From Gelidibacter pelagius (GTDB lineage: Bacteria > Bacteroidota > Bacteroidia > Flavobacteriales > Flavobacteriaceae): a stretch of 64,000 nucleotides of DNA. The DNA lies in assembly GCF_017581925.1 (NCBI RefSeq), contig NZ_JAGEVG010000003.1:1-64000 (forward strand), read 5' to 3'. This document shows positions 3,684 through 31,121 of this stretch, piece after piece; position 1 is the stretch's first letter; each line of letters starts with the position of its first letter. The position numbers and the translations under genes are program-made. Under the pieces are notes generated by a model. It saw only the letters and a program-made list of their open reading frames with translations, was not told the origin of the DNA and did not search any database.

Positions 3684-3715
3684 TTGCGAAATCAATTTTA
3701 TATTACTTAATTTTG
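3684..3715 (+). promoter_or_regulatory. Promoter of the heavy-metal efflux operon
   Basis: A TTG at 3684-3686 (-33) and TAATTTTG at 3708-3715 (-7) are separated by 21 bases, within the Bacteroidota range. The GTG start of the response regulator follows 23 bases after the -7 box. Confidence 0.6.
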
Positions 3716-3738
3716 GATGTTCAAAAAAAATCGTTCGG

Positions 3739-7235: not shown

Positions 7236-7259
7236 ATACCATTTATTCAATTATAAAAA

Positions 7260-8369
7260 ATGTACAACACCAATTTATACCGTCTGACGCTTTTTGCTTT
7301 TTTGCTTCTGCTTATCAGTGGTTGCGCAAAAAATAAAAATGAACATATCATTCATAAAGAGACCACTACGTTTTGTCTCAATGATTTTATGAAAGATGAT
7401 ATTGTTAAAGTGGCTGTAGAAAAAAGAACCATTACAGAATCCATTATACTGAACGCTCAAGTAGAGGCAAACCCGGACAAGCTGGTTCACTTTGTGAGTT
7501 TGGTGAGTGGTGTCGTGACCAAAACCTATTTTTCCTCAGGTGATAAAGTTAAAAAAGGACAGTTGCTTTTGGAAATGATGAGCAGTGAACTCAGTAGTTT
7601 GACCTCACAAAAATCAAGTCTGAAATCCCAAATCCTTGTCGCTCAACGCGAATTGGAATCGGTTCAGGAAATGCATCACGATAAGATCGCCTCCCAAAGA
7701 GATTTGATTGAGGCACAAAGTAGTTTGGATGTACTGAGAGCGGAACTTCAAAACATTAACGCGCAACTTAATTTATATAGTGCGAGTGCGGAGCGCGGTG
7801 TGTTCCAGGTGAGAGCGTCCTCTTCGGGCACCATTATCAGTAAAAATGTGGCAGCAGGCATGCAGGTTTCGGCAGAAGGCGATCCGCTTTTTACAATTTC
7901 CGATTTGAATGAAGTTTGGATCATGGCCAATATTTACGCTGGAAATATTCCGTATGTAAAACAAGGCATGCCAGTAGAAATAAAAGCTTTGCCTTATGCC
8001 GAGGAGGTGTTTATAGGAGAAATAAATGTGGTATCACAAGTGTTTGATTCCAATGAACGTGTTCTAAAAGCACGTATCGTGATGGATAATAAAGATGGCA
8101 AACTCATGCCTGGAATGCTGGTGGATGTCACGGTTGAAAAGGAAGACGGTCTGATGGCTAATGCCGCTCCAGTAGATGCGTTGATTTTTGACGATAACCA
8201 ACATTTCCTGGTTCTGTATAAATCCGATTGCGATATCGAAGTCCGAAAGGTGACGCCGACCATACAAAACGCCAACACGGTTTATTTTGAAAATAACATT
8301 AAAGAGGGCGAACAAATTATCACAAAAAATCACCTTTTGATTTACAACCACTTAAAAGCGTTAAAATAA
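7260..8369 (+). CDS. RND efflux periplasmic adaptor (CusB/CzcB-like lipoprotein)
   Basis: Membrane-fusion protein that joins the RND pump to the outer-membrane channel. The 369-residue precursor has a lipoprotein signal with lipobox LISGC (C22 lipidated). A lipoyl/barrel-sandwich region comes next (SGVVTKTYFSSGDKVKKGQ at about 81-99), then an alpha-hairpin (about 105-175), the returning half of the lipoyl domain and beta-barrel domains to the C-terminus. It lies 24 bases after the channel gene and 9 bases before the pump gene, so it is cotranscribed with them. There is no long His-rich N-terminal metal-binding segment. Confidence 0.9.
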   Translation: MYNTNLYRLTLFAFLLLLISGCAKNKNEHIIHKETTTFCLNDFMKDDIVKVAVEKRTITESIILNAQVEANPDKLVHFVSLVSGVVTKTYFSSGDKVKKGQLLLEMMSSELSSLTSQKSSLKSQILVAQRELESVQEMHHDKIASQRDLIEAQSSLDVLRAELQNINAQLNLYSASAERGVFQVRASSSGTIISKNVAAGMQVSAEGDPLFTISDLNEVWIMANIYAGNIPYVKQGMPVEIKALPYAEEVFIGEINVVSQVFDSNERVLKARIVMDNKDGKLMPGMLVDVTVEKEDGLMANAAPVDALIFDDNQHFLVLYKSDCDIEVRKVTPTIQNANTVYFENNIKEGEQIITKNHLLIYNHLKALK

Positions 8370-8378
8370 GCCTTATCC

Positions 8379-11300
8379 ATGAAGAAATTTGTCCAAGGTA
8401 TCGTTGGGTTTTCCTTAAAAAACTCCACCATTGTATTTTTTCTAACAGGATTGTTGTTGGTGGCGGGGATTGTAAATTACATCAAAATTCCTATTGAAGC
8501 TTTTCCAGATGTCACCAATACCAGAGCGCGAATCATTACGCAATGGCCCGGTAGAAGTGCCGAAGAAGTAGAAAAATTTATTACACTTCCTGTTTCTAAG
8601 GAAATGAATACCATTCCGAAAAAAGCTGAAGTACGCTCCACATCCTTGTTCGGACTTTCGGTGGTGACCGTTCTTTTTGATGATGATGTTGAGGATTTTT
8701 ATGCCCAACAATACGCTTCCAATAGACTTCAAGGTTTGGCATTGCCAGAAGGAAGTGACGCACAAATAGAACCTCCTTCTGGGGCTACCGGTGAAATTTT
8801 TAGATATGTGGTGAAGAGTGATTTGCAAATAAAGGAAATTACTGCCATTCATGATTGGGTTATTGAACGTGAACTCTTATCTGTTCCCGGCGTTGCGGAT
8901 GTAGCGAGTTTTGGAGGCGAAGAAAAGATTTATGAGATCCAGATCAATCCCAGCGAATTAAAAAATTATGACCTTTCGCCCTTGGATGTTTACGAAGCGG
9001 TTTCTAAAAGTAATATCAATGTTGGTGGTGATGTGATTCAGCGTGGCGATCAGGCCTATGCAGTCCGTGGCGTTGGTTTGTTGGAAAGTGTTGAAGATAT
9101 TGAAAACATCTTGATTACGGTAAACGGTTCTACGCCAGTTTTGGTAAAACACGTGGCCGAAGTTATTATTGCCGCCAAACCCAGATTGGGCCAAGTGGGA
9201 CTGGATGAAGATGATGATCTTGTTCAGGGGATCGTGATCATGTTGCGAGGTGAAAATCCTGCCGACGTTATTGAAGGTTTAAAAACACGAATCAACGAAC
9301 TAAACACACGGATTCTTCCAAAAAATGTGGAGATCGTCCCTTTTATCGACCGTTCAGAATTGGTTGAAACCACGGTTAGTACCGTAACGACCAACTTAAT
9401 TGAAGGGGTGATTTTGGTATCGTTGATCGTATTCATCTTTCTTTATAACTGGAGAACAACGCTGATTGTTGCGTCGGTAATTCCGCTATCGTTCTTGTTC
9501 GCTATTATCATGTTGCGAATCCAAGGCCTGCCAGCCAATTTAATATCCATGGGCGCGCTCGATTTTGGATTGCTTCTGGAAGGCACTTTGGTCATTGTGG
9601 AACAGGTTTTTGTGTCCCTCCAAATTAAATCCCGTCTTATGGGAAGAGATAAGTTTGCGAAAGTCTCTAAGTTGGGGATTATTAAAAAAAGCGTGGGCAA
9701 GGTCTCAACACCCATCTTTTTCGCCTTGTTTATTCTCATCGTTGCCCTCATGCCTATATTTTCCTTCCAGAAAGTGGAAGGGAAGATGTTCTCGCCCTTG
9801 GCATACACTTTAGGCTATGCGCTTTTAGGCTCGCTTATTTTAAGTTTGACTTATGTGCCAGCCATGTGTAAAGTACTATTGAATAAAGGGGTTAATGATA
9901 AAGAAAGCATTGTGTCAAAGTTTTTTAACGTGCAATTTTTTAAACTTTATAAATTTACCGATAAACACGGAAGAGCAACCTTATATGCGTTTGTGGGTTT
10001 ATTGGTGATATGTGCTGTAAAGTTCAGTTATTACGGCACCGAATTCTTACCAAAATTAAATGAAGGCGCCATCTACGTCCGTGCAACTTTGCCAGTGAGC
10101 ATTCACCTTGACGAATCGGTGAAGTTGGCACAGGAGATGAAAGAAAAAATAAGACAACACGATGAGATTAAATTTGTGTTGACCCAAACGGGACGTCCCA
10201 ATGATGGCACCGATCCTACCGGGTTTTTCAATATCGAATTTCATATTGAGTTAAAACCTGAAGGCGAATGGGAACGCGACATTTCAAAAGACGATTTAAT
10301 GGCAGAAATACGAGATGATCTGGAAACCTATCCGGGGATCAATTTCGGATTTAGCCAGCCTATTCAAGACAACGTCGAAGAATATGTGGCGGGCGTAAAA
10401 AGTTCGTTGGTGGTGAAGATTTTTGGGGATGATCTCTTCGAATTGGAAGGGAAAGCCCATGAAGTTGCTGATGCCATCCGAGATATTGAAGGCATTACGG
10501 ATTTAAATGTGTATGAAAATATCGGTCAACCCGAATTGCGGATTCAATTGCATGACAACAAGATGGCAAAATATGGCGTCACCATGTCCGATGCCCAATC
10601 GGTGGTAGCCATGGCCATTGGAGGTCAGGCGGCAACTACTTTTTATGAAGGTGAACGGATGTTTGATATCCGCATTAGATATCAAAAACAACATCGTGAA
10701 TCGGCGGAGGCCATTGGTAATATTCTGGTGCCGGTTTATGATGGCCATCACGTACCATTAAAGGAAATAGCGACCATTGATTTCCATACAGGTCCTGCGT
10801 TTATCTATCGGGAAGGAAATAGCCGTTATATCGGGGTTGGTTTTAGTATTGAAGGACGTGACCTGGGAAGTACCATTGCCGAAGCACGGAAAAAAGTGGA
10901 GGCAGAAGTTGAAATTCCATCGTACAACAAAGTGGAATGGGCGGGGGAGTTTGAAAGTAAAGAGCGTGCCAGTAAGCAATTAATGGTGGTCGTGCCTATT
11001 TCATTATTGTTGATTCTTTTCTTGTTGTACATGAATTTTGGTAATGTCAAAGACACTGTTATCGCTGCGCTTACTCTGCCTTTCGCCTTTGTCGGCGGTT
11101 TGATTTCCTTATGGGTTACGGGAACGGTTTTTGGTATTTCGGCTGGCATTGGTTTTATTATCCTCTTTGGAGTATCAACGATTAACGGACTGATTTTAAT
11201 CACCGTTATTCATGAGAAATTGCAGGAGCGCCACAAATTAAGAGAGGCGATTGCTTTGGGAGTCAAAGAAAAAATACGACCTATTGTGATGATTGGTTTA

Positions 11301-11468
11301 ATGGGTGCCATGGGCTTATTGCCAGCTGCGCTTTCCAATGGCATGGGATCTGAAATTCAAAAACCCTTGGCGATTATGATTGTGGGTGGTATTTTAATTT
11401 GTACACTACTTTCCTTGACGGTGTTGCCTCAGTTGTTCTATTTGGCGTATAGAAAGTCTAAGGAATAG
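8379..11468 (+). CDS. Heavy-metal RND efflux pump (CzcA/CusA family)
   Basis: Inner-membrane proton-driven pump of 1029 residues, the usual length, with TM1 at about 13-33 and two large periplasmic loops, each followed by a bundle of helices (about 340-535 and 870-1025). The order of genes matches a metal-export operon. The transmembrane proton-relay segment reads DFGLLLEGTLVIVE. D395 and E408 align with D402 and E415 of Cupriavidus CzcA, but the position of CzcA D408 is E401 here, a charge-conserving replacement. No CusA-like methionine ladder was looked for in detail, so the transported metal (divalent Zn/Co/Cd/Ni or monovalent Cu/Ag) is undecided. The DFG context favours the divalent-cation group. 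Confidence 0.9.
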   Translation: MKKFVQGIVGFSLKNSTIVFFLTGLLLVAGIVNYIKIPIEAFPDVTNTRARIITQWPGRSAEEVEKFITLPVSKEMNTIPKKAEVRSTSLFGLSVVTVLFDDDVEDFYAQQYASNRLQGLALPEGSDAQIEPPSGATGEIFRYVVKSDLQIKEITAIHDWVIERELLSVPGVADVASFGGEEKIYEIQINPSELKNYDLSPLDVYEAVSKSNINVGGDVIQRGDQAYAVRGVGLLESVEDIENILITVNGSTPVLVKHVAEVIIAAKPRLGQVGLDEDDDLVQGIVIMLRGENPADVIEGLKTRINELNTRILPKNVEIVPFIDRSELVETTVSTVTTNLIEGVILVSLIVFIFLYNWRTTLIVASVIPLSFLFAIIMLRIQGLPANLISMGALDFGLLLEGTLVIVEQVFVSLQIKSRLMGRDKFAKVSKLGIIKKSVGKVSTPIFFALFILIVALMPIFSFQKVEGKMFSPLAYTLGYALLGSLILSLTYVPAMCKVLLNKGVNDKESIVSKFFNVQFFKLYKFTDKHGRATLYAFVGLLVICAVKFSYYGTEFLPKLNEGAIYVRATLPVSIHLDESVKLAQEMKEKIRQHDEIKFVLTQTGRPNDGTDPTGFFNIEFHIELKPEGEWERDISKDDLMAEIRDDLETYPGINFGFSQPIQDNVEEYVAGVKSSLVVKIFGDDLFELEGKAHEVADAIRDIEGITDLNVYENIGQPELRIQLHDNKMAKYGVTMSDAQSVVAMAIGGQAATTFYEGERMFDIRIRYQKQHRESAEAIGNILVPVYDGHHVPLKEIATIDFHTGPAFIYREGNSRYIGVGFSIEGRDLGSTIAEARKKVEAEVEIPSYNKVEWAGEFESKERASKQLMVVVPISLLLILFLLYMNFGNVKDTVIAALTLPFAFVGGLISLWVTGTVFGISAGIGFIILFGVSTINGLILITVIHEKLQERHKLREAIALGVKEKIRPIVMIGLMGAMGLLPAALSNGMGSEIQKPLAIMIVGGILICTLLSLTVLPQLFYLAYRKSKE

Positions 11469-15726: not shown

Positions 15727-17337
15727 ATGCCAACTGATTATATCCCATTTAAAGACACCAATTATTTTTCTTCCTTGATTTGCGATTATTTAGATGAAAA
15801 GGAAAACCTCAAACCATTTTATAATCGCTTTCCAAAGCTTGAAAATTTTGAAAAGCAGATTGAAGAAAAACAGCTGAATTATAATCGAAACAATCGGTCT
15901 GACTTGGTGAAGGCACTCATGTTACAGTATGAAGGCTTGAGCATTTCTTCCATGACCCTCACTAATATTGATCTTCTAAAGCACGGCACAACATTTACGG
16001 TCACCACAGGGCATCAACTGAATTTGTTTACGGGCCCCTTATATTTTTTCTATAAAATTGTTTCGACAATTAATCTTTGTAAGGAATTAAAAGCAGCCTA
16101 TCCCAATTTTAATTTTGTGCCTATTTATTGGATGGCTACGGAAGACCACGATTTTGAAGAAATCAACTTCTTTAATTTTAAGGGCAAAAAAGTGCAGTGG
16201 AACAGAGAAGCTTCAGGGGCTGTTGGGGAATTGGATTTAGAAGGTTTGGACCATGTTTATGAGGTATTTGCAACGCAGTTGGATAAAAGTGAGAATGCAA
16301 AATCCTTAAAGAAACTATTTGAGCAAGCTTATTTGGAACATGATAACTTAACAGATGCAACCCGATTTTTGGTCAATAAACTGTTTGCAATTTATGGCTT
16401 AGTTATTTTAGATGGGAATGATCCCAATTTGAAAAAAATGTATCTGCCCTATATTTCTGAAGAATTGATTCAACAAACGGCATTTGAGAAAGTGACCAAA
16501 ACAAATGAAGAGATCAATAAATTGCCTTCTAATTATAAAATACAGGTCAACCCTAGGAAAATTAATTTATTCTATCTCAATAAAGACTTACGAGAACGAA
16601 TTTTAGAGACCGATGGTTCATATGGCGTTTTAGATACCGATATCCGATGGACAAAGGATGAATTACTTGCCGAGGTAAACGCACATCCAGAACGATTTAG
16701 TCCGAATGTGATTTTGCGCCCTATGTATCAAGAAATTATTCTGCCCAACCTTTGCTATATCGGCGGCGGCGGGGAATTGGCATATTGGTTACAATTGAAA
16801 TCTAATTTTGAAGCGCAAGACGTGACTTTTCCAATGTTGTTGCTTCGGAATTCTGTACTGCTCATCACTGAAAAACAAAAGGATAAACTTAATAAATTGA
16901 AGGTTTCTGTTGCCGATTTATTCTTAAATCAAGAAGACTTAATGACCAAGGTAACTAAATCCATTTCCGATATCAACATCGATTTTACTCCTCAAAAGGA
17001 ATATTTAAAGAAGCAATTTGAAGATTTATATGTTTTGGCGGAGCAAACCGACAAATCCTTTAAGGGCGCGGTTGCGGCACAAGAAGTCAAACAAATAAAG
17101 GGCATAGAAAATCTTGAACATCGCTTATTAAAAGCCCAGAAACGGAAAATGGAGGATGTTTTGGATCGTGTAAAAATCCTACAGGATGAATTGTTTCCAA
17201 GACAAAGTCTGCAAGAGCGACATCTCAATATTTCGGAGTTTTATTTGGAATATGGCGAAGACATCATTCAGAGTTTAATTGAAAATTTAGAGCCATTAAA
17301 AGCTGAGTTTTTAATTTTAGACATTTCAAATCAATAA
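15727..17337 (+). CDS. bshC: Bacillithiol biosynthesis cysteine-adding enzyme BshC
   Basis: Catalyses the last step of bacillithiol synthesis, joining cysteine to GlcN-malate. It has 536 residues, the family length. Diagnostic stretches are TTGHQLNLFTGPLYFFYK, which is the nucleotide-binding HxGH-like region, and YWMATEDHDFEEI. A long C-terminal coiled coil (about 390-500) is typical of BshC dimers. It shows that the organism uses bacillithiol as its low-molecular-weight thiol; bshA and bshB are not in this window. It lies 10 bases upstream of the decarboxylase gene and is probably cotranscribed with it. Confidence 0.93.
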   Translation: MPTDYIPFKDTNYFSSLICDYLDEKENLKPFYNRFPKLENFEKQIEEKQLNYNRNNRSDLVKALMLQYEGLSISSMTLTNIDLLKHGTTFTVTTGHQLNLFTGPLYFFYKIVSTINLCKELKAAYPNFNFVPIYWMATEDHDFEEINFFNFKGKKVQWNREASGAVGELDLEGLDHVYEVFATQLDKSENAKSLKKLFEQAYLEHDNLTDATRFLVNKLFAIYGLVILDGNDPNLKKMYLPYISEELIQQTAFEKVTKTNEEINKLPSNYKIQVNPRKINLFYLNKDLRERILETDGSYGVLDTDIRWTKDELLAEVNAHPERFSPNVILRPMYQEIILPNLCYIGGGGELAYWLQLKSNFEAQDVTFPMLLLRNSVLLITEKQKDKLNKLKVSVADLFLNQEDLMTKVTKSISDINIDFTPQKEYLKKQFEDLYVLAEQTDKSFKGAVAAQEVKQIKGIENLEHRLLKAQKRKMEDVLDRVKILQDELFPRQSLQERHLNISEFYLEYGEDIIQSLIENLEPLKAEFLILDISNQ

Positions 17338-17347: not shown

Positions 17348-18727
17348 ATGAAAAGCATGCACAAAATTGATTTGAACTTAATTGAGATGACCTTGGACAT
17401 TATGAAATATGCCATTGGGCGTATTTCAGCAACGGAGCATCCCATAGGCAAGCCCAAAAAAGAAGCAGAACTCAAAAGTCTGGTGGGAGAAACGATCACG
17501 GCAAAAGGGATTGGTGGCGAATATGCCTTCAATTTATGGAAGGACCATTTGGCAAAGGCCAATGTGCCGGTAGACCATCCTCGAAATCTTGCATTTGTAC
17601 CAGCCTCGCCTACAAAAGCAGCCATTATGTTCGATTTGGTCACCTCGGCGTCCAGTATTCATGGTGCGTATTGGATGGAAGGTGCAGGCGGCATTTTCTG
17701 TGAAAATGAAGCCATGAAGTGGATTGTGTCTCTTACAGGTATGCCCGACGGTGCGTTCGGTGTATTTACGAGTGGCGGAACCGCAGCCAATTTATCAGCC
17801 ATTGTAACGGCAAGAGAACATTGGCGTGAGAATCCTGAATTCCAGAGAGAAAAGGGATTGATCATTACTTCCATTGGCGCGCATTCATCCATCAAAGCGA
17901 TGGCGAAAGTAGCCGATGTAGATATCCTTTTGGTCGATTCTGAAGAGCGTTTAACAGGTGCTGATCTAAAAACAGCTATTGGAAGCTTGACAAAACACGA
18001 GAGAAAACGCCTTTTTGCAGTGGTCGCCACGGCAGGAACAACCAATGCAGGCATTATTGATGATATGGCCGACATTGCCTCCGTTTGTCAGCAGGAAAAC
18101 TTATGGTTTCATGTAGATGCCGCTTACGGTGGTGGTGCCTTGGTTGCAGATTCTGTCCGCCACTTGTTTGATGGCATCGAAAAAGCAGATAGCGTGACCA
18201 TCGACCCACACAAATGGATGTTCTCGCCCTACGATTGTGGCGCCGTAATTTATAAAGAACCGGAATTGGCAAAAAACGCCCATTCCCAACAAGGTTCTTA
18301 TTTGGATATTTTTAAGGACGAAGGTGCACATGGCTTTAATCCCACCGATTATCAAATTCAGTTAACACGTCGCGTCCGCGGATTGCCGTTATGGTTTTCA
18401 TTGGCTACCCACGGCACGGATCGGTATAGGGAAGCGGTGGAGCGTGGCATTGAACTGGCGCAAATTGCCGGAAGAATGATTACAGCCCATCCAGATCTGG
18501 AATTGGTTCGAGAACCAAGTTTATCTTGCGTATTGTACCGAAGAAAAGGATGGCAACCGGACGATTATACCGAATGGACTTATGAAAACCATCGCAAAGG
18601 TTTTGCATTGGTCACACCCACCAAATGGAAAAATGGCGACCACTTTGAAACTGTGTCACGTTTTTGTTTTATCAATCCGGACACTACGGAAAGGGATATT
18701 GAGATGATTTTGGAGTCGATGGAATAA
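17348..18727 (+). CDS. Pyridoxal-phosphate-dependent amino acid decarboxylase (group II)
   Basis: A fold-type I PLP enzyme of 459 residues resembling aspartate/glutamate/diaminobutyrate or aromatic amino acid decarboxylases. It shows the cofactor-binding TSGGTAANLSA, the HVDAAYGGG stretch with the aspartate that pairs with the pyridine nitrogen, and the Schiff-base lysine K289 in DPHKWM. The substrate cannot be chosen from these motifs. It is cytoplasmic and directly follows bshC. Confidence 0.88.
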   Translation: MKSMHKIDLNLIEMTLDIMKYAIGRISATEHPIGKPKKEAELKSLVGETITAKGIGGEYAFNLWKDHLAKANVPVDHPRNLAFVPASPTKAAIMFDLVTSASSIHGAYWMEGAGGIFCENEAMKWIVSLTGMPDGAFGVFTSGGTAANLSAIVTAREHWRENPEFQREKGLIITSIGAHSSIKAMAKVADVDILLVDSEERLTGADLKTAIGSLTKHERKRLFAVVATAGTTNAGIIDDMADIASVCQQENLWFHVDAAYGGGALVADSVRHLFDGIEKADSVTIDPHKWMFSPYDCGAVIYKEPELAKNAHSQQGSYLDIFKDEGAHGFNPTDYQIQLTRRVRGLPLWFSLATHGTDRYREAVERGIELAQIAGRMITAHPDLELVREPSLSCVLYRRKGWQPDDYTEWTYENHRKGFALVTPTKWKNGDHFETVSRFCFINPDTTERDIEMILESME

Positions 18728-19103: not shown

Positions 19104-22100
19104 ATGACACGCCTTAAATTATTCACATTTTCTATATTCCTGCTATTTGTGGGGTTTAAAAGTTTTGCCCAAGATCCGCAAGTAGTGGGCCAATGGGGTG
19201 GTATCATTGAATTCGACATTGTCCCTGTTGCTATTGCCAATTTGCCCGATGGGAGATTGGTGACCTGGTCTTCAAAATATCATGACGACTTTGATATGAA
19301 TGATGGGTACACGTTTACCCAAATTTTTGACCCTTTAGGGAATGATAGCTTAGGGGCGGTTTTACCAAGAACGGTAACCGAGACTTATCATGATATGTTC
19401 TGCCCCGGGATTAACAATCTGGCCGATGGACGATTATTGGTCACTGGTGGGAGCTCTGATGAGAAAACCAGTATTTATGATCCTAAAACAGGAGTTTGGA
19501 CAGCTGATGTAGATATGAATATTCCGAGAGGGTATCAAGGCGCGGTGACTTTAGCGGACGGTGCGGCATTTACTATTGGTGGATCATGGAACGATGGTGT
19601 CCCTGCAGGAGGGAGAGACGGGGAGATATGGAGAGAAGGCCAAGGTTGGACCCATCTAACAGGATTGTCAAGCACAATACTTTATAATCAAAATGATATT
19701 GATGGAGAGCCTGAAGGTGTATATCGATTGGATAACCACGCGTGGTTGTTTGCCGCGCCTAACGGGAAAATTTTTCATGCCGGCCCAGGAGAGACGATGC
19801 ACTGGATTGATGTAAATGGAAATAGTGGAGCGGGTTCTTATGAAGTAATTGGTCAAAGAGCTCAAGACTCTATGTCAATGAATGGTAGCGCTGCCATGTT
19901 TGATATCGGTAAAATTTTAAAAGTAGGCGGGAGTGCGTCATACTCGTCCAACACCGTGCCAAATCCAAATGCCTATGTGATTGCTCTTGATTCAACGGGC
20001 ATTACTGATAATGTGACCGTAACTGCCACGGCTAATCCAATGGAACACGCCAGAGTATATGTGAGTAGCGTCGTACTTCCTGATGGCGAAGTGTTAATTA
20101 TGGGAGGTTTGGATCATGCCGAAGTTTTTGTGGACGATGTGGCTTATTTTTCTGCGGAGATGTATAATCCCGAATCAAACTCATTTAGAACTTTGGCCAG
20201 TATGCAAACGCCAAGAACTTACCATAGTGCCGCCATTTTATTGAAGGATGGCCGCGTTTTTATGGGTGGTGGCGGCTTGTGTGGCGAAGGTTGTGCAGCC
20301 AATCATAAAGATGCTGAAATATTCAGTCCACCGTATTTGTTTAATAGTAATGGCGATTTGGCAGAGCGTCCAACTTTAAAAGCCCCAGATAAGGCATTTT
20401 ACGAAAGATCATTAACCGTGACGGCCTCACCGGGCATTCAGGAGTTTTCGTTTATAAGAATGTCCTCGGCTACCCATAGTGTGAATAACGAGCAGCGTCG
20501 GGTGCCTGTAACCTATTCAGATAATAATGATGGTAGTTACACTTTAAATATCCCCGAAGCCAATCTCATGCCTCCAGGCTATTATATGTTGTTTGCTATA
20601 GATGTAAATGGCGTTCCGAGTATTGCAGAAACGGTTTTGGTAGGTGAAGCAGATTCGAGGCTTAATGGAGACCATTTATTGGTGGAATTTGATTTTTTTG
20701 AAGGGACTGGGTCTTTAATTAGAGACTCCTCTGGAAATGATAATCATGGTGAAATTATAGAGCATGACGATGATGGAAACCCAGTAGCAACACTTGGTGA
20801 TTTTTGGACCGCCGATGGTTTATCAGGAAATGCCCTTGAAATGAATGGCATGGAATTTAGGAGTAATTCTATTGTTGACATTCCGACATCTTCCACAATA
20901 GGAGCTGCGTTAACAAACCAAATTACGGTCATGGCCTGGGTGAATAGAAATGTTGATAGTAGATTGCCAGACGGCAAAATTCCGAATGTGGCTGTTTTTA
21001 CGCACTTAGGTGAATTAAACTCTGATTATTCGTCATTTTTTATGGGCTATCACGCGGATCAGTATAAGTTGGAATTTTTTACGCATGGAGGATCTGCTAT
21101 TCTTTATGGTAACCGCGAGATTGATAAGAGGTACGAGCCTGGGGTTTGGGAACATCTTGTGGCCACTTATGATGGTGAAACTGCAATACTTTATGTGAAT
21201 GGTGAAGAATTTAGAAGTTCTGATCTTACGGGAAATTTAATAATTAGGACAGATCATCCGGAATCAGTATATAATGCCTTTACACTCTCTGGCTTTTATG
21301 AGCTGCGTGATAATCCTGGAGGAGAAGATGGAAACAGCAGCGGCATAACCGATGAGCTCGACGGCCGTATGGACAAGTTTAAGCTCTACAATATTGCACT
21401 TACCGAAGCAGAAATCCAAGCTATTTATAATGAAGAATATAAGGTTGTTGTGGAGCCAGACCCTTGTGACGACTATTATTTAGTGTATGAAATAGGCGAT
21501 AACTCGGGCAGTGGCTCCAAAGAGATTTCCATTCGTGAGGGGGATAGTATCAGATTGACGCTTAATGATGAAAACGTTGATTATATTGTGAGAGGTCCGG
21601 ATGGGGTTGAAATAATTAATGGCGTCATCAATAATATCATCGAATCAGGTGTCTATACAGTAACAGCTACATTGAGTGAGGTTGGACCAGCTAAAGAGTT
21701 GTCTATCCACGATGTATCTAGTGAGCAAATAGAACTCCAAGATAGTAACCGTGAAAAAGCCATTGACGGAAGCCCTAATACTTATTGGCATACAAAATGG
21801 GATGATTACAACTTTCCTCATTGGATAGATTTAGATTTAGGTGAAGAAAAAGGAGTGGTAGGACTAGAATATTTACCTCGTCCAATAGATGAAGTAGGTG
21901 AGGAGCATAATGCTGAAAATGGCAGAATTTCTGAGTTTTCGATATATGTAAGTGATTCACCTGACGATTGGGTAAGTGAAGATGTTTTAGATTGGGGTAC
22001 TCCTGTCCACACTGGACAATGGGAAAACACCTATGGATGGAAGATTGAAGAGTTTCCTGAAATCCGTGGCAGATACGTGCGCTTAGTGGCTCATTCAGAG

Positions 22101-23804
22101 GTAAGAGAACTCCAGCAACATGCCAATGCGGCGGAGATAAAGATTAATGTGACTATAGAATGCGTCCAGACCTTGGAAATAAATGTGGTGACTCCAGAAA
22201 TCTACACGTTTAATGGCTCTTGGTCTGAAAGTGGTGATCCAAGTGGTGTATCCGGTATATTTGATGATATTATCATCGAAAGTGGTGAAGCAATGATTTT
22301 GCAAAGTACATCTGCCCGTAACATTACGGTTGCTCCTGGAGCAGCTTTAACGGTAAATCCAAATGCCGCGGTCAATTTATCTGTTAGAAATACCCTGACT
22401 CTAAATTCAAACTCTACATCTTATGCCAGTTTGATTGAAACTGGATATTTAACCGGGACCGTTATTTATAATCGTTATGTGAATAAGATGGGAACCTCTG
22501 CAGGCGGTGGTAATGATCTTATTTCGCCTCCTGTAGCGAGGAATTTTAATGCTGCTTTTGTGGAAGAAAACGTAGGTGTAATAGCTGCGCATCCGACTAC
22601 GGTAGGAATCTATGCCTTTGCACCTTATAACGTGAACTCGGGCAAATATGAGAATTTTAATATAGGAACAAACAATTTGGGGAGTGAAGCGATGGTACCT
22701 GGTATAGGATACAGGGCAGCCACAGTAAATGGTGGTACCTTGAGCTTTAGAGGAACCACTACTAAGAGTGCTGTAAGTGTTCCAATTTATGACGGTTCTA
22801 GAAGTTCTTGGAATCTTATTGGAAACCCATATCCATCGTATCTTGATTTTGAAATGTTCTTTGAGGTTAATAAAGATCAATTTGAAGCTGGAGAAGCCTA
22901 TCAGGCCATATATGGTTATACTGGTAATTCCGGCGAGTGGACAATTCTCAACAATTTAAGTTTTGAGGATCCTAATTTACAACCCAAAATTGCACCAGGT
23001 CAAGGATTCTTTGTGAAATCAAAAGTGGGCGGTGGTATAGTACGATTTACACCGGAGATGAGAACTTCAGGTGCATCGGATGACTTTATCCATGGCAGAC
23101 CCAATAAGAATATTGCGTTAAGCAAACTTAAATTGACAAGAGGGTCCAGTGATGTGAGTACAAGCGTGTATTTCGTGGACGGAAGCACCAAAGGAATAGA
23201 TCCAGGTTATGATGCAGCCGCATATGCTGCCACCAAGGTTGATTTTTTACTTTTCACTAATTTAATAGAGGGTAATAAAGGTTTGGATATTGCCATTCAA
23301 GCTCTGCCTTATGAAGATTTTAATGATGTGATCGTTCCTTTGGGAGTCAAAGCTAAAGCGGGCGCACAATTGAGCATTAGTCTTGATGAGGTTTCCACAT
23401 TGCCAGCTAATATTAATGTGTATTTGGAAGATACCCAATACAATACACTGACGTTGTTGAATGATGACGCCTTTACTTTTACACCTACCGTAGATTTGAA
23501 TGGTGCGGGTCGTTTCAATGTCCATTATGCATCGAGAACCTTATCCATTGGAGATATGGATGCCAATGATAATTTACGCATCTACACAACATCATCACCT
23601 AAGACCTTATACATTATGGGGCAACTGACCGGTGCAACAAGAGCCTATTTATATGACATACAAGGGCGGTTGGTATTGAGTAAAGCTCTCAATCCAAATA
23701 CTACGGAAAATACCATGGATATCTCAACCATCGGTACTGGTATTTATGTGGTAAAGCTTAATAATGACCATCAAATTAAAACTCAGAAGCTGGTGATTAA
23801 ATAG
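19104..23804 (+). CDS. T9SS-secreted galactose-oxidase-like copper-radical protein with LamG and F5/8C domains
   Basis: A secreted multidomain protein of 1566 residues with signal peptide ending KSFAQ (1-23). Residues 25-513 form a kelch-type galactose oxidase. Fungal GalOx ligands and radical residues all have counterparts: C100 and Y144 (thioether pair, 44 apart as in C228/Y272), W162 (18 further, as W290), Y373-H374 (Y495-H496) and H458 (H581), plus a C-terminal DUF1929-like fold ending MPPGYYMLFAIDVNGVPS. A LamG/concanavalin-like domain (about 527-779), an Ig-like module (787-862), an F5/8 type C module (868-1019) and a long scaffold shared with the next two genes follow. A T9SS type A sorting domain is at about 1490-1566. 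It likely oxidises an alcohol or sugar group of an extracellular glycan; the substrate is unknown. Confidence 0.9.
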   Translation: MTRLKLFTFSIFLLFVGFKSFAQDPQVVGQWGGIIEFDIVPVAIANLPDGRLVTWSSKYHDDFDMNDGYTFTQIFDPLGNDSLGAVLPRTVTETYHDMFCPGINNLADGRLLVTGGSSDEKTSIYDPKTGVWTADVDMNIPRGYQGAVTLADGAAFTIGGSWNDGVPAGGRDGEIWREGQGWTHLTGLSSTILYNQNDIDGEPEGVYRLDNHAWLFAAPNGKIFHAGPGETMHWIDVNGNSGAGSYEVIGQRAQDSMSMNGSAAMFDIGKILKVGGSASYSSNTVPNPNAYVIALDSTGITDNVTVTATANPMEHARVYVSSVVLPDGEVLIMGGLDHAEVFVDDVAYFSAEMYNPESNSFRTLASMQTPRTYHSAAILLKDGRVFMGGGGLCGEGCAANHKDAEIFSPPYLFNSNGDLAERPTLKAPDKAFYERSLTVTASPGIQEFSFIRMSSATHSVNNEQRRVPVTYSDNNDGSYTLNIPEANLMPPGYYMLFAIDVNGVPSIAETVLVGEADSRLNGDHLLVEFDFFEGTGSLIRDSSGNDNHGEIIEHDDDGNPVATLGDFWTADGLSGNALEMNGMEFRSNSIVDIPTSSTIGAALTNQITVMAWVNRNVDSRLPDGKIPNVAVFTHLGELNSDYSSFFMGYHADQYKLEFFTHGGSAILYGNREIDKRYEPGVWEHLVATYDGETAILYVNGEEFRSSDLTGNLIIRTDHPESVYNAFTLSGFYELRDNPGGEDGNSSGITDELDGRMDKFKLYNIALTEAEIQAIYNEEYKVVVEPDPCDDYYLVYEIGDNSGSGSKEISIREGDSIRLTLNDENVDYIVRGPDGVEIINGVINNIIESGVYTVTATLSEVGPAKELSIHDVSSEQIELQDSNREKAIDGSPNTYWHTKWDDYNFPHWIDLDLGEEKGVVGLEYLPRPIDEVGEEHNAENGRISEFSIYVSDSPDDWVSEDVLDWGTPVHTGQWENTYGWKIEEFPEIRGRYVRLVAHSEVRELQQHANAAEIKINVTIECVQTLEINVVTPEIYTFNGSWSESGDPSGVSGIFDDIIIESGEAMILQSTSARNITVAPGAALTVNPNAAVNLSVRNTLTLNSNSTSYASLIETGYLTGTVIYNRYVNKMGTSAGGGNDLISPPVARNFNAAFVEENVGVIAAHPTTVGIYAFAPYNVNSGKYENFNIGTNNLGSEAMVPGIGYRAATVNGGTLSFRGTTTKSAVSVPIYDGSRSSWNLIGNPYPSYLDFEMFFEVNKDQFEAGEAYQAIYGYTGNSGEWTILNNLSFEDPNLQPKIAPGQGFFVKSKVGGGIVRFTPEMRTSGASDDFIHGRPNKNIALSKLKLTRGSSDVSTSVYFVDGSTKGIDPGYDAAAYAATKVDFLLFTNLIEGNKGLDIAIQALPYEDFNDVIVPLGVKAKAGAQLSISLDEVSTLPANINVYLEDTQYNTLTLLNDDAFTFTPTVDLNGAGRFNVHYASRTLSIGDMDANDNLRIYTTSSPKTLYIMGQLTGATRAYLYDIQGRLVLSKALNPNTTENTMDISTIGTGIYVVKLNNDHQIKTQKLVIK

Positions 23805-24372: not shown

Positions 24373-24464
24373 AATAGTCCCGCATCCGTTCAGTTAATTC
24401 GTTAATGAATTACATATATGAATTAAGAAGTGGTCTAATGCCCAACCCAAATCTTTTTATTATT

Positions 24465-27356
24465 ATGTCTAGTACAAGATTCTATTTAATTTTTTTTCTT
24501 CTCATATTTTTAGGTTTTAAGGGTTTTTCCCAGAATCTTGAGGTGAACTTGGCTCTTGGGCAACCTACCTCACAATCGAGTGTGGATTGGGGAGGTGATC
24601 CTGAGAAAGCTGTTGATGGTAATACCAGTGGTTTTTTTGACAATGATAATTTAGAAGGTAATTCGGTAACCCATACAGAGGATTTACCGGATTCGTGGTG
24701 GCGCGTAGATTTAGGCGAGGTGTTTGATCTCTCTGAAATACGGATTTTCAATAGAACTGATGAATCGGGTCGACTCTTTGGTGCAGAAGTTTTTGTTGGT
24801 ATTATTGATAGTTATGATATTTCAAATTATACCTCAGTTGGCATTTTAAATTCAAGAACAATCCAAGTTCTATCGAGAGATCTTGGAACTGCTAGATATG
24901 TTATGATTCGTCAAAATGGCATATTGAGCTTGGCAGAAGTTGAAGTTTATGCTAATCCTTTAAACTGTCCTCCAACAGGTACCAGCTGTGATGATGGTGA
25001 TCCAAATACGATCAATGACGAGCAAGATGGGAATTGCAATTGTGTAGGGACTGTTATATTATGTGAAGACTTATCGATAACTTATGAAATAAACAGTGGT
25101 CCAAGAGTTGATGGGGCAACAGAAGTTACGGTCAACGAGGGCGATGATATAGGATTGTTTCTGAATTTGGAAGGTGTTGCCTATACCGTAACAGACCCAA
25201 GCGATAATGTTCTAAGTAGCCCTATTGTTTCAAACATCAGTAGTGGACAATCTGGTCTATATACAGTAACTGGTATCTTACATCCAGTTGTGATATCCGT
25301 GGATAGTGAAGAATATTTAACAGAGAATGGCCATGCTTCAAACGCCGTTGATGGCAATCCTGATACTATATGGCATACGGAATGGTCTGCTATAGATGAT
25401 CCCTACCCTCATGAGATAGTAATTGATTTACGTACTGAATCAACTGTATCTGGTCTTGAGTATTTACCAAGACAAGATGGTATACTACACGGTATGATTG
25501 CTGGTTATGAGATTTACGTGAGCAATTCAACTACCGACTGGGGTAGTGCTGTGGCTACTGGATACGAGGGAGGCACAGGTGTTAATGTGCCTTGGGCCTA
25601 CAATGCTGATTTAAAACAAATCAGTTTTACTGAAAAGCAAGGAAGATACGTACGCCTGGTGGCGCTTTCAGAAGGAGGAAATAACGATTGGGCATCCGCT
25701 GCAGAAATTAGAGTGATCAGTGAAGTTATTACTCCATGCATCAAGACCATACAAATAAATGTTGGAACAGCATATATATATGATGGTAGCACCTGGTCCC
25801 CAAGCGATCCAAATTCTACTGAACTTGGTATATATGATAGTATCCGAATTAATTCAGGCGATGCTGTAATTTCCAATTCTCTATCATGTTACAGTGTAAT
25901 AGTTGCTCCTGGTGCAGGATTAACCGTCAATAGTGGGGTGACATTGGCTGTGGACACAACAACTTTACAGTCCAGGTCTAACACCTATTCAAGTTTGATT
26001 TTGAACGGGGAGATTACTGGTGCTGTCAATTACGAACGATACGTTAATGTGATTGGCACTTCTGCTGGCGGTGGGAATGATCTTATTTCTTCCCCAGTGG
26101 TCAATCAGACTTTTGGATCTTTTGCATCAGCACCTGCTAATGGTGTGTTAGCAGCATCAGGGACGTTGAGAGCATTTGCACCTTATAATACCGCAGCTGG
26201 TGCCTACCAAAATTATGATATCACTGCAAATGCATCAACTATTATAGCATCAGGAATGGGTTTCAGAGCAGCTACAACTACAGGTAGCAACTTGACCTTT
26301 ACAGGATCTGTTGCGAAATCAAATGTACAGGTCGCTATGTCAGATGCCTTACCAGGAAGAGCTTGGAACCTGATTGGAAACCCATACCCTTCCTATCTTC
26401 ATTTCAGAACATTTTTTAATTCTAATATGGATGAATTTGAATCTGGTAAAGCCTATCAAGCAATTTACGGATATAACGGTGGGGCATCAAATCAATGGGA
26501 AGTTTGGAATTTGGCTACATCCAATGAGGGCGATTTAATTGCTCCAGGCCAAGGATTCTTTGTAAAGGCTAAAGCAGGTGCAGGCAATATAACCTTTACA
26601 CCAGCTATGAGACGTACTGGAACTTCTGACGATTTTATTGCTGGAAGACCAGCGAGCGCATCCAAAGCCTTAAGCAAGCTTAAATTAAGTAATGCTTCCA
26701 ATACGGCATCAACAAGTATCTATTTTATTGAAGGCACAACAAAAGGTTTGGACCGCGGTTATGATGCGGCAGCTTATTCAGCTACTAAAGTTGATTTTTC
26801 AATGTTCACCAATTTATTGGAAGACAATACCGGTCTTGACATCGCTGTACAATCTTTACCTTATAATGATTTTAATAACGTTACTGTCCCCTTGGGAATT
26901 AAGGCTAAAGCAGGGGCGGAATTAACGATCAGCATCGATGAGGTTTCTACACTACCATCAAACATTAATGTGTATTTGGAAGATACCCAATACAATACCT
27001 TGACTTTATTGAATGATGAAACCTTTACTTTTGCGCCAACGACCAACCTAAATGGGGCCGACCGTTTCAATATTCATTACTCAGCTAAAACATTATCAGT
27101 TACCGACATTCAGTCTAATGATAATTTGCGTATTTATACAACAACATCTCCTAAAGCCTTATTTATTATGGGGCAATTGTCTGGTTCAACAACAGCACAT
27201 CTTTATGATATACAAGGCCGATTGGTTATGCATAAAGTTCTCTATCCTAATACTACTGAGAATACCATGGATATTTCAACTGTAAGTACTGGAGTTTATG
27301 TGATAAAACTTAATAATGATAATCAATCCAAAACACAAAAACTTATTATTAGATAA
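24465..27356 (+). CDS. T9SS-secreted protein with two F5/8C domains (second paralog)
   Basis: A 963-residue secreted protein. The start at 24465 is chosen because it gives a 23-residue signal peptide of the same length as those of the two paralogs. An earlier in-frame ATG at 24405 would add 20 unrelated residues. Residues 26-164 form a discoidin/fucolectin-like F5/8 type C domain. A cysteine-rich linker CDDGDPNTIND...CNCVG follows (about 168-196), then the Ig-like module, a second F5/8C domain (about 276-420) and the shared scaffold. A T9SS type A sorting domain lies at about 889-963. It has no enzyme domain, so it is probably a surface glycan-binding or adhesive protein. Confidence 0.87.
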   Translation: MSSTRFYLIFFLLIFLGFKGFSQNLEVNLALGQPTSQSSVDWGGDPEKAVDGNTSGFFDNDNLEGNSVTHTEDLPDSWWRVDLGEVFDLSEIRIFNRTDESGRLFGAEVFVGIIDSYDISNYTSVGILNSRTIQVLSRDLGTARYVMIRQNGILSLAEVEVYANPLNCPPTGTSCDDGDPNTINDEQDGNCNCVGTVILCEDLSITYEINSGPRVDGATEVTVNEGDDIGLFLNLEGVAYTVTDPSDNVLSSPIVSNISSGQSGLYTVTGILHPVVISVDSEEYLTENGHASNAVDGNPDTIWHTEWSAIDDPYPHEIVIDLRTESTVSGLEYLPRQDGILHGMIAGYEIYVSNSTTDWGSAVATGYEGGTGVNVPWAYNADLKQISFTEKQGRYVRLVALSEGGNNDWASAAEIRVISEVITPCIKTIQINVGTAYIYDGSTWSPSDPNSTELGIYDSIRINSGDAVISNSLSCYSVIVAPGAGLTVNSGVTLAVDTTTLQSRSNTYSSLILNGEITGAVNYERYVNVIGTSAGGGNDLISSPVVNQTFGSFASAPANGVLAASGTLRAFAPYNTAAGAYQNYDITANASTIIASGMGFRAATTTGSNLTFTGSVAKSNVQVAMSDALPGRAWNLIGNPYPSYLHFRTFFNSNMDEFESGKAYQAIYGYNGGASNQWEVWNLATSNEGDLIAPGQGFFVKAKAGAGNITFTPAMRRTGTSDDFIAGRPASASKALSKLKLSNASNTASTSIYFIEGTTKGLDRGYDAAAYSATKVDFSMFTNLLEDNTGLDIAVQSLPYNDFNNVTVPLGIKAKAGAELTISIDEVSTLPSNINVYLEDTQYNTLTLLNDETFTFAPTTNLNGADRFNIHYSAKTLSVTDIQSNDNLRIYTTTSPKALFIMGQLSGSTTAHLYDIQGRLVMHKVLYPNTTENTMDISTVSTGVYVIKLNNDNQSKTQKLIIR

Positions 27357-28058: not shown

Positions 28059-31000
28059 ATGATTAAAAATTATTTTTCTACTATTTCATTTCTACTATTA
28101 TTTATCGGTCTTCATGGCTTTTCTAAAAACCTCCGCGATGGGAGTCGATGGAGCACTCCGGTTTCATTTGAATTGGTGTCTGTGCCACTATCTGATTTAC
28201 CTGACAATAGTTTCTATTATGGGTCATCAATAGATCATGCTGATTTTTTTGAGGACGTAAGTGAGATTTCGAGCTTGGCTGACGCTAAAATGTATTTTTC
28301 TCCTGAATGTCCTACTGAAGGCCAATCCTGTGATGACGGAAATTCAAATACTATCAATGATGCGTTAGATGCTGACTGTAATTGTGTGGGAGTTGCTATC
28401 GCCTTAGCTTGTGAGGAAACCGAGATCTCTTATCAAATAAATAACAGTGGCCCAAGACAAATTGGTGGAACGGAAATTACTGTTGGTGAAGGTGACACTG
28501 TTGAATTATTTGCCAATTTAGCAAATTATACGATAACAGGTCCAAACGGTGTCGTTGTGACCGCTAACACGATGAATGATATTCTTCCTTCTCAGGCTGG
28601 TACATATACTGTGAATACAGCCTTTAGAAGACAAACGGCAATTCCAAATGTAGTTTCAGTGAGCAGTCAACATACTACTACCGGTAATAATAGTATTTCA
28701 GCGGCATTTGATAATGACCCTACAACTTTCTGGCACAGTAACTATAACGACCCTGTTTCTAGATATCCTCATGAATTAGTGTTTGATATGGGGGCAGGCG
28801 CTGTGTTGTCTGGCTTCACTTATTTACCTAGGACTGGAAGTGGTGACGGCGATACAAATGGTAGAATTGGTACATATGATATTTATGTTAGTAACACACT
28901 TGGATCATGGGGTACTGCTGTAGTACAAAATGGAACATTCGCAAGCAATGATGCCTTAAAGACTGTAAGATTTACGCCAAGACAAGGACGTTATTTACGT
29001 TTTGTTGCAAAAACACCGGCAATAGCTAATCAAGTTTGGGCAACAGCTGCTGAACTATCTGTTTTGAGAGGTGCTACTGCCACAGCCAGTAGCGCATTAA
29101 GTATAAGCCCTTCTTCAAATGCTACTGACAATAATGACAATACTATCTGGCAAACTGCTTCAGGTGCAACGGGTTCTCCTTATATTACTTTAGATTTGGG
29201 GATCGAATCTAATGTTACCGGTATTGAGTATCTGCCACGTCAGTCAGGTACGACTGGTAGGATTACCTCCTATGAAGTCTTTATAAGTAATTCTTTGAGT
29301 AATTTTGGTACACGTGTCGGAACTGGCACATGGAGTTATACTAATAATGCAACAGGTTTAAAAACGGCTAGTTTTCCTGAAAAGAAGGGTCGTTACGTGA
29401 GACTTGTATCAACTACTGGTGCTGCTGCATCCGCCGCAGAATTTAGAGCCATTAGTTCAACCATCAATTTTCCGTGTGCCAAGACCATCCAGATCAATGT
29501 CGACAAAATAGAAACTTACACTTATACCGATGGCACTTGGTCTCCTACAACTCCAGTTGGAGTGGTTACTGCAAATGATAATATTACTATAGCTTCCGGT
29601 GACGCTGTGATTGCCACCAATATCACATTTAATAATTTAATTGTTGAACCTGGTGCATCTCTTACTGTAGATTCAGGTGCAATAGTAAATGCTACTACCA
29701 CAACTTTAAAGTCGAGATCAAATTCGTATTCTAGCTTAATCGTTAATGGTGAAATAAATGGTGTAGTTAATTATGGGCGCTGGGTCAATAAAATGGGTAC
29801 GGCTGCAGGTGGAGGCAATGATCTTATTTCCTCCCCATTGACAAATGCAAAATTTAACAATGCTTTTAGGATAGCCAATCCAAATTTACCTCAGAATCCA
29901 AGCCAACCTGGTGTTTTTGCGTTTGCACCATATAATGTAATATCTGGTGCTTATGAGAATTATAATATAGGTGCTGATTATTTAGGTGAATTTTCACTTA
30001 TTTCTGGCACTGGATATAGAGCTGCAACTATAGCTCTGACACCACAAACCGGCAACACCTTGACATTTACAGGAGAGGCTACTAAATCGGATGTAAATAT
30101 TGCTATTTCTGATGGTGGTTTGGGCGAAGCCTGGAACCTTATCGGAAACCCATATCCATCTTATTTAGATTTTAAAACTTTCTTTGATATCAACATTAAT
30201 GAATTTAGGCCTGACGGCGCTTATCAAGCTATTTATGGTTATAAAGGAAACTCTAGTGATTGGAATATTTTGAATTATGCCACTGCTGAAACAGATCAGT
30301 TAATTGCCCCTGGACAGGGATTCTTTGTTAAAGCCAAAGCAGGTGGAGGTAGTGTTCAATTTACTACAGCTATGAGAAGAAAGGGAGGTTCAGATGATTT
30401 TATTGTGGGTAGACCCGGAAGTTCATCAAGAGCATTAAGCAAGCTTAAATTGAGTAGCGCTTCTAAAGAAGTAACCACCAGTGTTTATTTTATTGATGGG
30501 ACTAGTAGAGGATTAGATGTTGGTTATGATGCTGCTGCCTATGCGGCTACTAAAGTTGATTTTGCAATATTTTCTAAGTTGTTAGAAGATAATTCAGGTC
30601 TTGATATCGCTATTCAGTCCTTACCATACACTGATTATAACGATGTGATCGTACCGTTGGGAATCAAGGCCAAAGCAGGAACAGAATTGAGCATCAGTAT
30701 TGATGAGCTCTCAACACTGCCATCAAACATTAAGGTGTACTTGGAAGATACCCAAAACAATACGCTTACTTTATTAAATGATGAAGCTTTTACTTTTAAG
30801 CCTACCACAAATTTAAATGGAGCTGACCGTTTTAATGTTCATTATTCGGCTAAAACGCTGTCCATTGATGATATGAGCGCAAATGATAATTTACGTATTT
30901 ATACAACAACATCACCTAAAACCTTGTTTATTACAGGGCAATTGTCCGGTCCAACAACAGCGCAACTTTATGATATACATGGACGATTGGTATTGGGTCA

Positions 31001-31121
31001 AGTTCTCAATATGAATACGACAGAGAATACCATGGATATCTCAACCATGAGCACGGGTGTTTATGTGGTAAAGCTTAATAATGAGCATCAATTTAAAACG
31101 CAAAAGCTGATCATTAAATAG
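28059..31121 (+). CDS. T9SS-secreted protein with a vestigial galactose-oxidase start and two F5/8C domains (third paralog)
   Basis: A 1020-residue secreted protein with a signal peptide of about 23 residues. Residues 25-82 align without gaps to the start of the first paralog's galactose-oxidase domain; W, F, the LPD, SS and HxDF positions coincide, 12 of 34 identical in the best stretch. The propeller then stops and a CDDG...CNCVG linker follows (84-112), so all copper and radical residues are absent. The Ig-like module, two consecutive F5/8C domains (about 194-337 and 338-465), the shared scaffold and a T9SS type A domain (about 941-1020) complete it. Probably a binding or adhesive derivative of an oxidase ancestor. 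Confidence 0.87.
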   Translation: MIKNYFSTISFLLLFIGLHGFSKNLRDGSRWSTPVSFELVSVPLSDLPDNSFYYGSSIDHADFFEDVSEISSLADAKMYFSPECPTEGQSCDDGNSNTINDALDADCNCVGVAIALACEETEISYQINNSGPRQIGGTEITVGEGDTVELFANLANYTITGPNGVVVTANTMNDILPSQAGTYTVNTAFRRQTAIPNVVSVSSQHTTTGNNSISAAFDNDPTTFWHSNYNDPVSRYPHELVFDMGAGAVLSGFTYLPRTGSGDGDTNGRIGTYDIYVSNTLGSWGTAVVQNGTFASNDALKTVRFTPRQGRYLRFVAKTPAIANQVWATAAELSVLRGATATASSALSISPSSNATDNNDNTIWQTASGATGSPYITLDLGIESNVTGIEYLPRQSGTTGRITSYEVFISNSLSNFGTRVGTGTWSYTNNATGLKTASFPEKKGRYVRLVSTTGAAASAAEFRAISSTINFPCAKTIQINVDKIETYTYTDGTWSPTTPVGVVTANDNITIASGDAVIATNITFNNLIVEPGASLTVDSGAIVNATTTTLKSRSNSYSSLIVNGEINGVVNYGRWVNKMGTAAGGGNDLISSPLTNAKFNNAFRIANPNLPQNPSQPGVFAFAPYNVISGAYENYNIGADYLGEFSLISGTGYRAATIALTPQTGNTLTFTGEATKSDVNIAISDGGLGEAWNLIGNPYPSYLDFKTFFDININEFRPDGAYQAIYGYKGNSSDWNILNYATAETDQLIAPGQGFFVKAKAGGGSVQFTTAMRRKGGSDDFIVGRPGSSSRALSKLKLSSASKEVTTSVYFIDGTSRGLDVGYDAAAYAATKVDFAIFSKLLEDNSGLDIAIQSLPYTDYNDVIVPLGIKAKAGTELSISIDELSTLPSNIKVYLEDTQNNTLTLLNDEAFTFKPTTNLNGADRFNVHYSAKTLSIDDMSANDNLRIYTTTSPKTLFITGQLSGPTTAQLYDIHGRLVLGQVLNMNTTENTMDISTMSTGVYVVKLNNEHQFKTQKLIIK

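Follow-up and report, generated by a model that had tools for sequence, protein, structure and literature searches.

A predicted T9SS-exported galactose oxidase-type copper radical oxidase in Gelidibacter and its rare relatives in the Flavobacteriaceae

Domain architecture and surroundings of the gene

An open reading frame on the forward strand of Gelidibacter pelagius contig NZ_JAGEVG010000003.1, at 19104..23804 of the 64,000-nucleotide stretch analyzed here (positions 1 to 64,000; hereafter the window), starts with ATG and encodes a protein of 1566 amino acids. The original prediction of a galactose oxidase-like enzyme had been drawn at 19104-20650, an interval that does hold the catalytic part; the protein itself continues to 23804. 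The galactose oxidase (GalOx) catalytic domain occupies residues 23-515. In order, the protein consists of a probable signal peptide, a kelch propeller, a GO-like early-set domain, a LamG module, an F5/8C module, a long tail and a T9SS type A domain; the tail, between the F5/8C module and the sorting domain, has no Pfam match. These parts, and two related genes downstream, are as follows.

19104..19169, +, putative Sec signal peptide, residues 1-22 (probable; sequence inspected by eye)
19170..20366, +, kelch propeller of the galactose oxidase domain, residues 23-421 (profile and sequence matches, AlphaFold2 model, structure superposition)
20367..20639, +, GO-like early-set domain, residues 422-512, which contributes H458 (PF09118, 66.6 bits)
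20907..21419, +, LamG/concanavalin-like module, residues 602-772 (PF13385, 64.8 bits)
21738..22097, +, F5/8C (CBM32-like) module, residues 879-998 (PF00754, 60.6 bits)
23640..23798, +, T9SS type A C-terminal sorting domain, residues 1513-1565 (PF18962 and TIGR04183, both above cut-off)
24405..27356, +, T9SS neighbor with no catalytic domain, last ~765 residues in common with the GalOx protein (53% over 794 columns)
28059..31121, +, T9SS protein with a truncated GalOx-like N-terminus, last ~665 residues in common with the GalOx protein (56% over 693 columns)

The scores are to be compared with Pfam cut-offs of 25 bits for GO-like_E_set (PF09118), 27.6 for Laminin_G_3, 28.2 for F5_F8_type_C and 27 for Por_Secre_tail. 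The sorting domain scores 36.2 bits against Por_Secre_tail (PF18962) and 37.4 against TIGR04183 (cut-off 23). The LamG, F5/8C and T9SS sorting modules that the original prediction had attached to the enzyme thus all score above curated cut-offs. To judge from the C-terminal sorting domain, the protein is a putative type A substrate of the T9SS. There is one PF09118 match in the genome.

The nearest solved relative of the F5/8C module is a bacterial sialidase module (2bzd/1w8n, 59.7 bits), and the second nearest is the N-terminal module of Fusarium GalOx (1gof, 41.4 bits; an engineered variant, 46.2 bits). The last 270-520 residues of the protein resemble RemZ and RemA, T9SS substrates of Flavobacterium johnsoniae (8gl8, 8gl6). 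RemZ has been described as a type A T9SS substrate and a homolog of the adhesin RemA, a description that mentions no oxidase (PMC10994853). A structure model of the LamG and F5/8C modules was poor (pLDDT 60.6) and was left unused.

Upstream of the GalOx gene lie a bacillithiol-synthesis gene, BshC (15727-17337, +), and a PLP-dependent decarboxylase gene (17348-18727, +), the latter also preceding the GalOx gene in the four other Gelidibacter genomes compared at this location. Downstream, the N-terminal piece of the 28059-31121 product has a best blastp E of 1.6e-7 against 45 GalOx catalytic domains, and a 65-residue part of it scores 35.8 bits, a value reached by none of 200 shuffles (maximum 26.2). 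By its sequence, this second gene downstream probably goes back to a GalOx copy from which the catalytic propeller was lost. Because of this N-terminal remnant and the common tails, the window can be read as holding one intact GalOx copy and probably one without its propeller. In two other genomes (G003 and G008) a second intact GalOx gene adjoins the first.

Candidate partners were sought by Pfam search of 37 of the 38 open reading frames of at least 150 codons in the window; the one omitted, 56234-56752, overlaps a longer frame. Among these 37 there was no match to a glycoside hydrolase, sulfatase or SusC/SusD family, no peroxidase family, no copper partner and no recognized polysaccharide-export partner. 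An RND set at 5883-11468 was rejected as a copper partner, being of the HlyD/AcrB kind with no heavy-metal-binding domain and ending about 7.6 kb away. Elsewhere in the window, 54187-56175 (+) encodes an endonuclease I protein that ends in the T9SS sorting type of domain, and 60095-61822 holds an N6/N4 DNA methylase gene and, on the opposite strand, a gene for an MjaI-type restriction endonuclease.

Active-site residues and modeled structure

Residues 24-513 match PDB entry 9g43 with a phmmer E of 1.3e-128 and 1gof with an E of 1.9e-114, and the resemblance to galactose oxidase is therefore not a chance one. Over the catalytic domain, sequence identity is 46% to 9g43 (467 columns) and 42% to Fusarium GalOx 1t2x (471 columns). 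Residues were mapped onto Fusarium GalOx through an alignment of 45 catalytic domains, in which 36 rows are close homologs, all belonging to the Flavobacteriales part of the tree.

19401..19403, +, C100, equivalent to C228 of the Cys-Tyr cofactor (alignment; Cys in 36 of 36 close rows)
19533..19535, +, Y144, equivalent to Y272, cofactor tyrosine and copper ligand (alignment; 36 of 36)
19587..19589, +, W162, equivalent to the second-shell W290 (alignment; 36 of 36)
19713..19715, +, E204, at the position of substrate residue Q326, changed (alignment; Gln in 15 and Glu in 14 of the 36 rows)
19725..19727, +, R208, equivalent to substrate residue R330 (alignment; 36 of 36)
20220..20225, +, Y373-H374, equivalent to copper ligands Y495-H496 (alignment; 36 of 36)
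20475..20477, +, H458, equivalent to copper ligand H581 (alignment; 36 of 36)

All four copper ligands (Y272, Y495, H496, H581) thus have counterparts in the alignment, in Y144, Y373, H374 and H458, and the sequence has both residues, C100 and Y144, of the putative equivalent of the Cys228-Tyr272 thioether pair. The spacings on which the original prediction was built are exact: 44 residues from C100 to Y144, W162 a further 18 on, and 84 from H374 to H458, versus 85 in the fungal enzyme. Further retained residues are F194 (F63), F227 (F99), Y329 (Y207), R330 (R208), H334 (H212), Y405 (Y280) and F464 (F342), together with the C515/C518 pair (C393/C397). Five positions are substituted relative to Fusarium GalOx: Q326 by E204, Q406 by S281, F441 by Y319, P463 by V341 and T582 by S459. 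Across all 36 close rows, F227, C228, Y272, W290, R330, H334, Y405, F464, Y495, H496, C515, C518 and H581 are invariant, and Q406 is always replaced (Ser 11, Gly 10, Asp 8, Ala 7). The F194 position is Phe in 27 of the 36, and the F441 position, Tyr in the window protein, is Met in 26. Three distant Bacteroidota rows (L104-L106) keep the copper ligands and the cofactor cysteine and have Gly at the W290 position; at L104, a GMC oxidoreductase gene lies close to the galactose oxidase relative.

An AlphaFold2 model of the catalytic domain, built from an alignment of 13 sequences (the window protein and relatives from genome contigs), has a pLDDT of 88.8 and a pTM of 0.91. Its top Foldseek match is 9g43, followed by Fusarium GalOx entries, with a TM score of 0.90 to both 9g43 and 1gof and of 0.76-0.81 to chains of Streptomyces GlxA. 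VIA-align Z scores are 56.2 (9g43), 53.9 (1gof) and 44.0 (GlxA, 4unm), and of 493 residues, 467 superpose on 9g43 at 1.6 A and 473 on 1gof at 1.7 A. Failure of the active-site residues to meet would have told against the original prediction; the predicted fold superposes on 9g43 and 1gof, and in the sequence alignment the six residues fall in register with those of Fusarium GalOx. The kelch propeller and early-set domain appear in the galactose oxidase arrangement that characterizes CAZy family AA5, as judged by PF09118 and by the model on 1gof. The galactose oxidase-like identity first proposed for this protein is thus borne out by alignment with AA5 sequences, by phmmer and by PF09118.

Relation to known copper radical oxidases and predicted substrate

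The closest solved relative, GalOx of Pseudoarthrobacter siccitolerans (9g43, 9g8h), is also bacterial and has all of the copper, cofactor and W290/R330 residues. It differs in that its F5/8C-type module is N-terminal, whereas that of the window protein is C-terminal; in that its solved chain (618 residues) stops at the catalytic domain, with no LamG or sorting part in view; and in having Asp at the Q406 position and Gly at Q326. In the literature searched, no paper on 9g43 turned up under its codes or organism name. The fungal AA5_2 galactose 6-oxidase FgrGalOx (1gof) shares the active-site residues, their spacing and a CBM32-type module, but its CBM is N-terminal, it has neither LamG nor sorting domain, and its Q326, Q406 and F441 are not shared.

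GlxA of Streptomyces (4unm) has the same fold and copper site, and is a bacterial copper radical oxidase linked to polysaccharide. In GlxA the second-shell tryptophan, W288, is in a flipped orientation (PMC13094651), whereas the window protein has a tryptophan at the W290 position. Membership in the GlxA family was rejected (equivalog model NF052501, 126.6 bits; cut-off 800), as was membership in the AA5_1 glyoxal oxidases (PF07250 Glyoxal_oxid_N, 26.0 bits; cut-off 37.5). Some AA5 enzymes, bacterial ones included, fall outside both subfamilies (PMC11267884).

Fong et al. (2024, PMC11267884) regard the W290/R330 pair as the main indicator that an enzyme oxidizes galactose at C6, and this mark of AA5_2 galactose 6-oxidases is present as W162, which comes from the same chain segment, and R208, in the window protein and in all 36 close rows. 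The substrate glutamines Q326 and Q406, usual in AA5_2 though not defining, are absent (E204, S281). According to the same study, loss of either is usually, but not always, accompanied by loss of galactose 6-oxidase activity: XpaGalOx has Arg at Q326 and yet performs better than FgrGalOx, while EfeGalOx (Arg and Asp at the Q326 and Q406 positions) and NhaGalOx (Glu and Arg) are more than 100-fold less efficient (PMC11267884). PruAlcOx, too, has W290 and R330 together, and it oxidizes other alcohols about as well as galactose (PMC11267884). Two residue pairs, R330-Y329 and F194-W290, have been proposed as possible separators of sugar from alcohol oxidases (PMC6519835), and the window protein has all four. 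Since the W290/R330 pair is kept, both glutamines are lost, and the activity of such variants is mixed, our best guess from the sequence is a galactoside oxidase, perhaps slow on free galactose.

Distribution, phylogeny and selection

We found a full-length copy in 15 of 397 Flavobacteriaceae genomes, with any match at E 0.001 in 20. In a sample of the phylum, a full-length copy occurs in 4 of 395 genomes, including that of the window, and any match in 41. The first round of scoring was limited to three candidates per genome. Two of these four full-length copies lie outside the Flavobacteriaceae (40-42% identity), and there is one further partial match (39%). Five of nine Gelidibacter genomes examined, that of the window included, have the gene; the copy in one of them, G005, is 86% identical. 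Host genera of the relatives include Winogradskyella and Flagellimonas, which are marine.

In a tree of 45 rows, the 36 close rows form a single clade (support 100/98), and 9g43 with 1t2x forms its sister (100/98); 1t2x is the lone fungal row, on a long branch, and the root was drawn, not inferred. Left out of the tree were two duplicates (L012, the same contig as that of G005, and L013, the same as that of G008), three partial or broken frames (L024, L025, L026), the copy in G019, which has a masked stretch (L007/L031), the half-length copy in G105, and short matches. Comparison of the window gene with its G. maritimus ortholog, using our own Nei-Gojobori script, gave dN/dS values of 0.115 for the catalytic domain, 0.156 for LamG, 0.316 for F5/8C and 0.102 for the sorting domain. 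Purifying selection acts on the catalytic domain.

Gene neighborhoods in relatives

Neighbors were scored for 35 genes. For each type of neighborhood, one or two representative loci were searched with Pfam, and other loci were assigned through homology clusters. Excluded was L016, on a 3.8 kb contig; the copies in G019, G417, G182 (C12), G159 (C9) and G252 (C8) are at contig ends, with their neighbors out of view. The most frequent arrangement, seen for 14 of the 35 genes (10 loci; Pfam on L017, the other nine by homology clusters), places GalOx beside a wza-wzc-type set with Poly_export, Wzz/AAA_31 and Polysacc_synt_2 matches. Near some of these loci are CpsB_CapC, sugar transferase, DegT or UDP-sugar dehydrogenase genes. 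Another eight genes are found at a location with ECF sigma, DUF2807, MFS, M48 and GH31 genes and no polysaccharide-synthesis genes; GH31 and alpha-amylase genes are close to the copies there (Pfam on L088). Seven, that of the window among them, represent the Gelidibacter location, and no wza gene is near any of these seven. The rest are L102 and L019, with UDP-sugar dehydrogenases, L097, whose gene starts its contig, and three genes (L014, L015, L020) that adjoin a copper-efflux-type RND set, recognized by Pfam on L014 and by homology at L015 and L020. That set, made up of ACR_tran and of HlyD_D23 with HMBD and DUF3347, lies at about bases 1-5531 of these loci, divergent from the GalOx gene, and is absent beside the GalOx gene in Gelidibacter.

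A PF02563 match, the mark of a wza-type polysaccharide exporter, lies within 12 kb of 12 of 30 GalOx genes, in 8 of the 19 genomes with the gene, against an expectation of 0.33; distances were calculated in the eight linked genomes, and positions in the other eleven were compared by eye, with none near. In the eight linked genomes, which were selected for being linked, 7 of 9 recognized GalOx T9SS matches fall within 15 kb of PF02563, as against 0 of 124 other T9SS-domain matches (one is at 30 kb). In the window genome, the one PF02563 match that shares a contig with the GalOx gene lies 262 kb from it. On the tree, the linkage label needs just four changes, so independent linkage events may be few; the GH31-location label needs six. 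Kept synteny alone is weak proof of function, because eight copies are equally stable at the GH31 location, where polysaccharide-synthesis genes are lacking. At three loci (L093, L101, L103), two GalOx genes enclose the wza-wzc-type export genes, one on each side, an arrangement that is harder to explain by inertia.

Discussion

We consider it very likely that the gene encodes a galactose oxidase-type copper radical oxidase exported by the T9SS to the outside of the Gelidibacter cell. The basis of this reading is the model fold, the metal and cofactor residues, W290 and the R330 equivalent, the sorting domain, the attached modules and purifying selection; against it count Glu at Q326, Ser at Q406, Tyr at F441, the presence of the W290/R330 pair in PruAlcOx as well, and a C-terminal CBM where fungal GalOx has it N-terminal. 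If the enzyme behaves as its family does, copper in air would drive formation of the C100-Y144 thioether, and a primary alcohol, most likely the C6 hydroxyl of a terminal galactose or galactoside, would be oxidized to an aldehyde while O2 is reduced to H2O2. The CBM32-like and LamG modules would keep the enzyme on its glycan, whether the cell's own coat or one of algal or animal origin.

Which glycan that is bears on the role. Action on foreign glycans such as algal galactans or animal mucins, as an aid to attachment or degradation, is a tentative possibility; the original prediction had proposed algal or other glycans. Such action is in keeping with the CBM32-like and LamG modules, the sorting domain, the marine hosts of some relatives and the GH31 and alpha-amylase genes near eight relatives' copies, but the glycoside hydrolase, sulfatase and SusC/SusD families are missing from the 37 window frames searched, and the commonest partner in relatives is a set of polysaccharide-synthesis genes. 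The neighborhoods of relatives point to the bacteria's own polysaccharide at least as much as to algal glycans, and the wza-type neighbors of some hint at a role in finishing the cell's own coat. The Flavobacteriaceae enzymes might then oxidize surface galactose at C6 to aldehydes by which the matrix is cross-linked or anchored, in analogy to GlxA, which partners CslA in Streptomyces and serves the glucan that CslA makes (PMC11022532). That precedent, the wza-wzc-type neighbors, the nearness to PF02563 that other T9SS-domain matches do not share and the GalOx pairs flanking export genes all favor such a role; we nevertheless regard it as doubtful, given that no Gelidibacter copy is near wza, that the linkage may go back to few events, that the GH31 location is kept as stably, and that the control genomes were chosen as linked.

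Surface H2O2 could instead be the main product, as a weapon or as feed for a peroxidase, the sugar being merely fuel. Galactose oxidase chemistry yields H2O2 in any case, which counts for this use. A fungal alcohol oxidase is indeed paired with a partner peroxidase (PMC9770985), but peroxidase families are absent from the 37 window frames and from 30 neighbor proteins of relatives that were scanned, and we think this use distinctly unlikely. A catalytically dead propeller serving as an adhesin is very improbable: the products of 24405-27356 and 28059-31121 do retain binding and sorting parts with no catalytic domain, but the metal and cofactor residues are intact in all 36 close rows, and the catalytic domain has a lower dN/dS than the F5/8C module. 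Returning to a T9SS-exported galactose oxidase, we can offer as speculation, rather more doubtful in its full form, that Flavobacteriaceae use it to oxidize galactose in their own capsule or exopolysaccharide and thereby control matrix cross-linking, as a Gram-negative counterpart of CslA-GlxA from a different enzyme branch; on this view the genes of Gelidibacter would have moved away from the polysaccharide locus and been amplified in tandem, with some turned into plain binders by loss of the catalytic part.

The kind of enzyme is less novel than the original prediction implied, because a bacterial GalOx structure (9g43) exists and GlxA is well studied (PMC3543389, PMC11022532); FbfB of Stigmatella is another bacterial copper radical oxidase (PMC3543389). 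With bacterial GalOx already known, the enzyme class is not new; what appears to be new is the architecture, the predicted export route and the link of relatives to polysaccharide loci. A search that lacked most subscription journals found no literature on a galactose oxidase from Bacteroidota or exported by the T9SS, and no report of this architecture or its genome context.

The galactose oxidases that have been studied well come from fungi, and little is known of what they do in nature. The rare, strictly conserved and putatively surface-exported set in Flavobacteriaceae offers cultivable bacteria in which to ask about that natural role, and oxidase engineering may find in these enzymes a bacterial point of departure. 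Should the wza link prove functional, unrelated bacteria would have in common the trick of oxidizing their own polysaccharide by copper radical chemistry.
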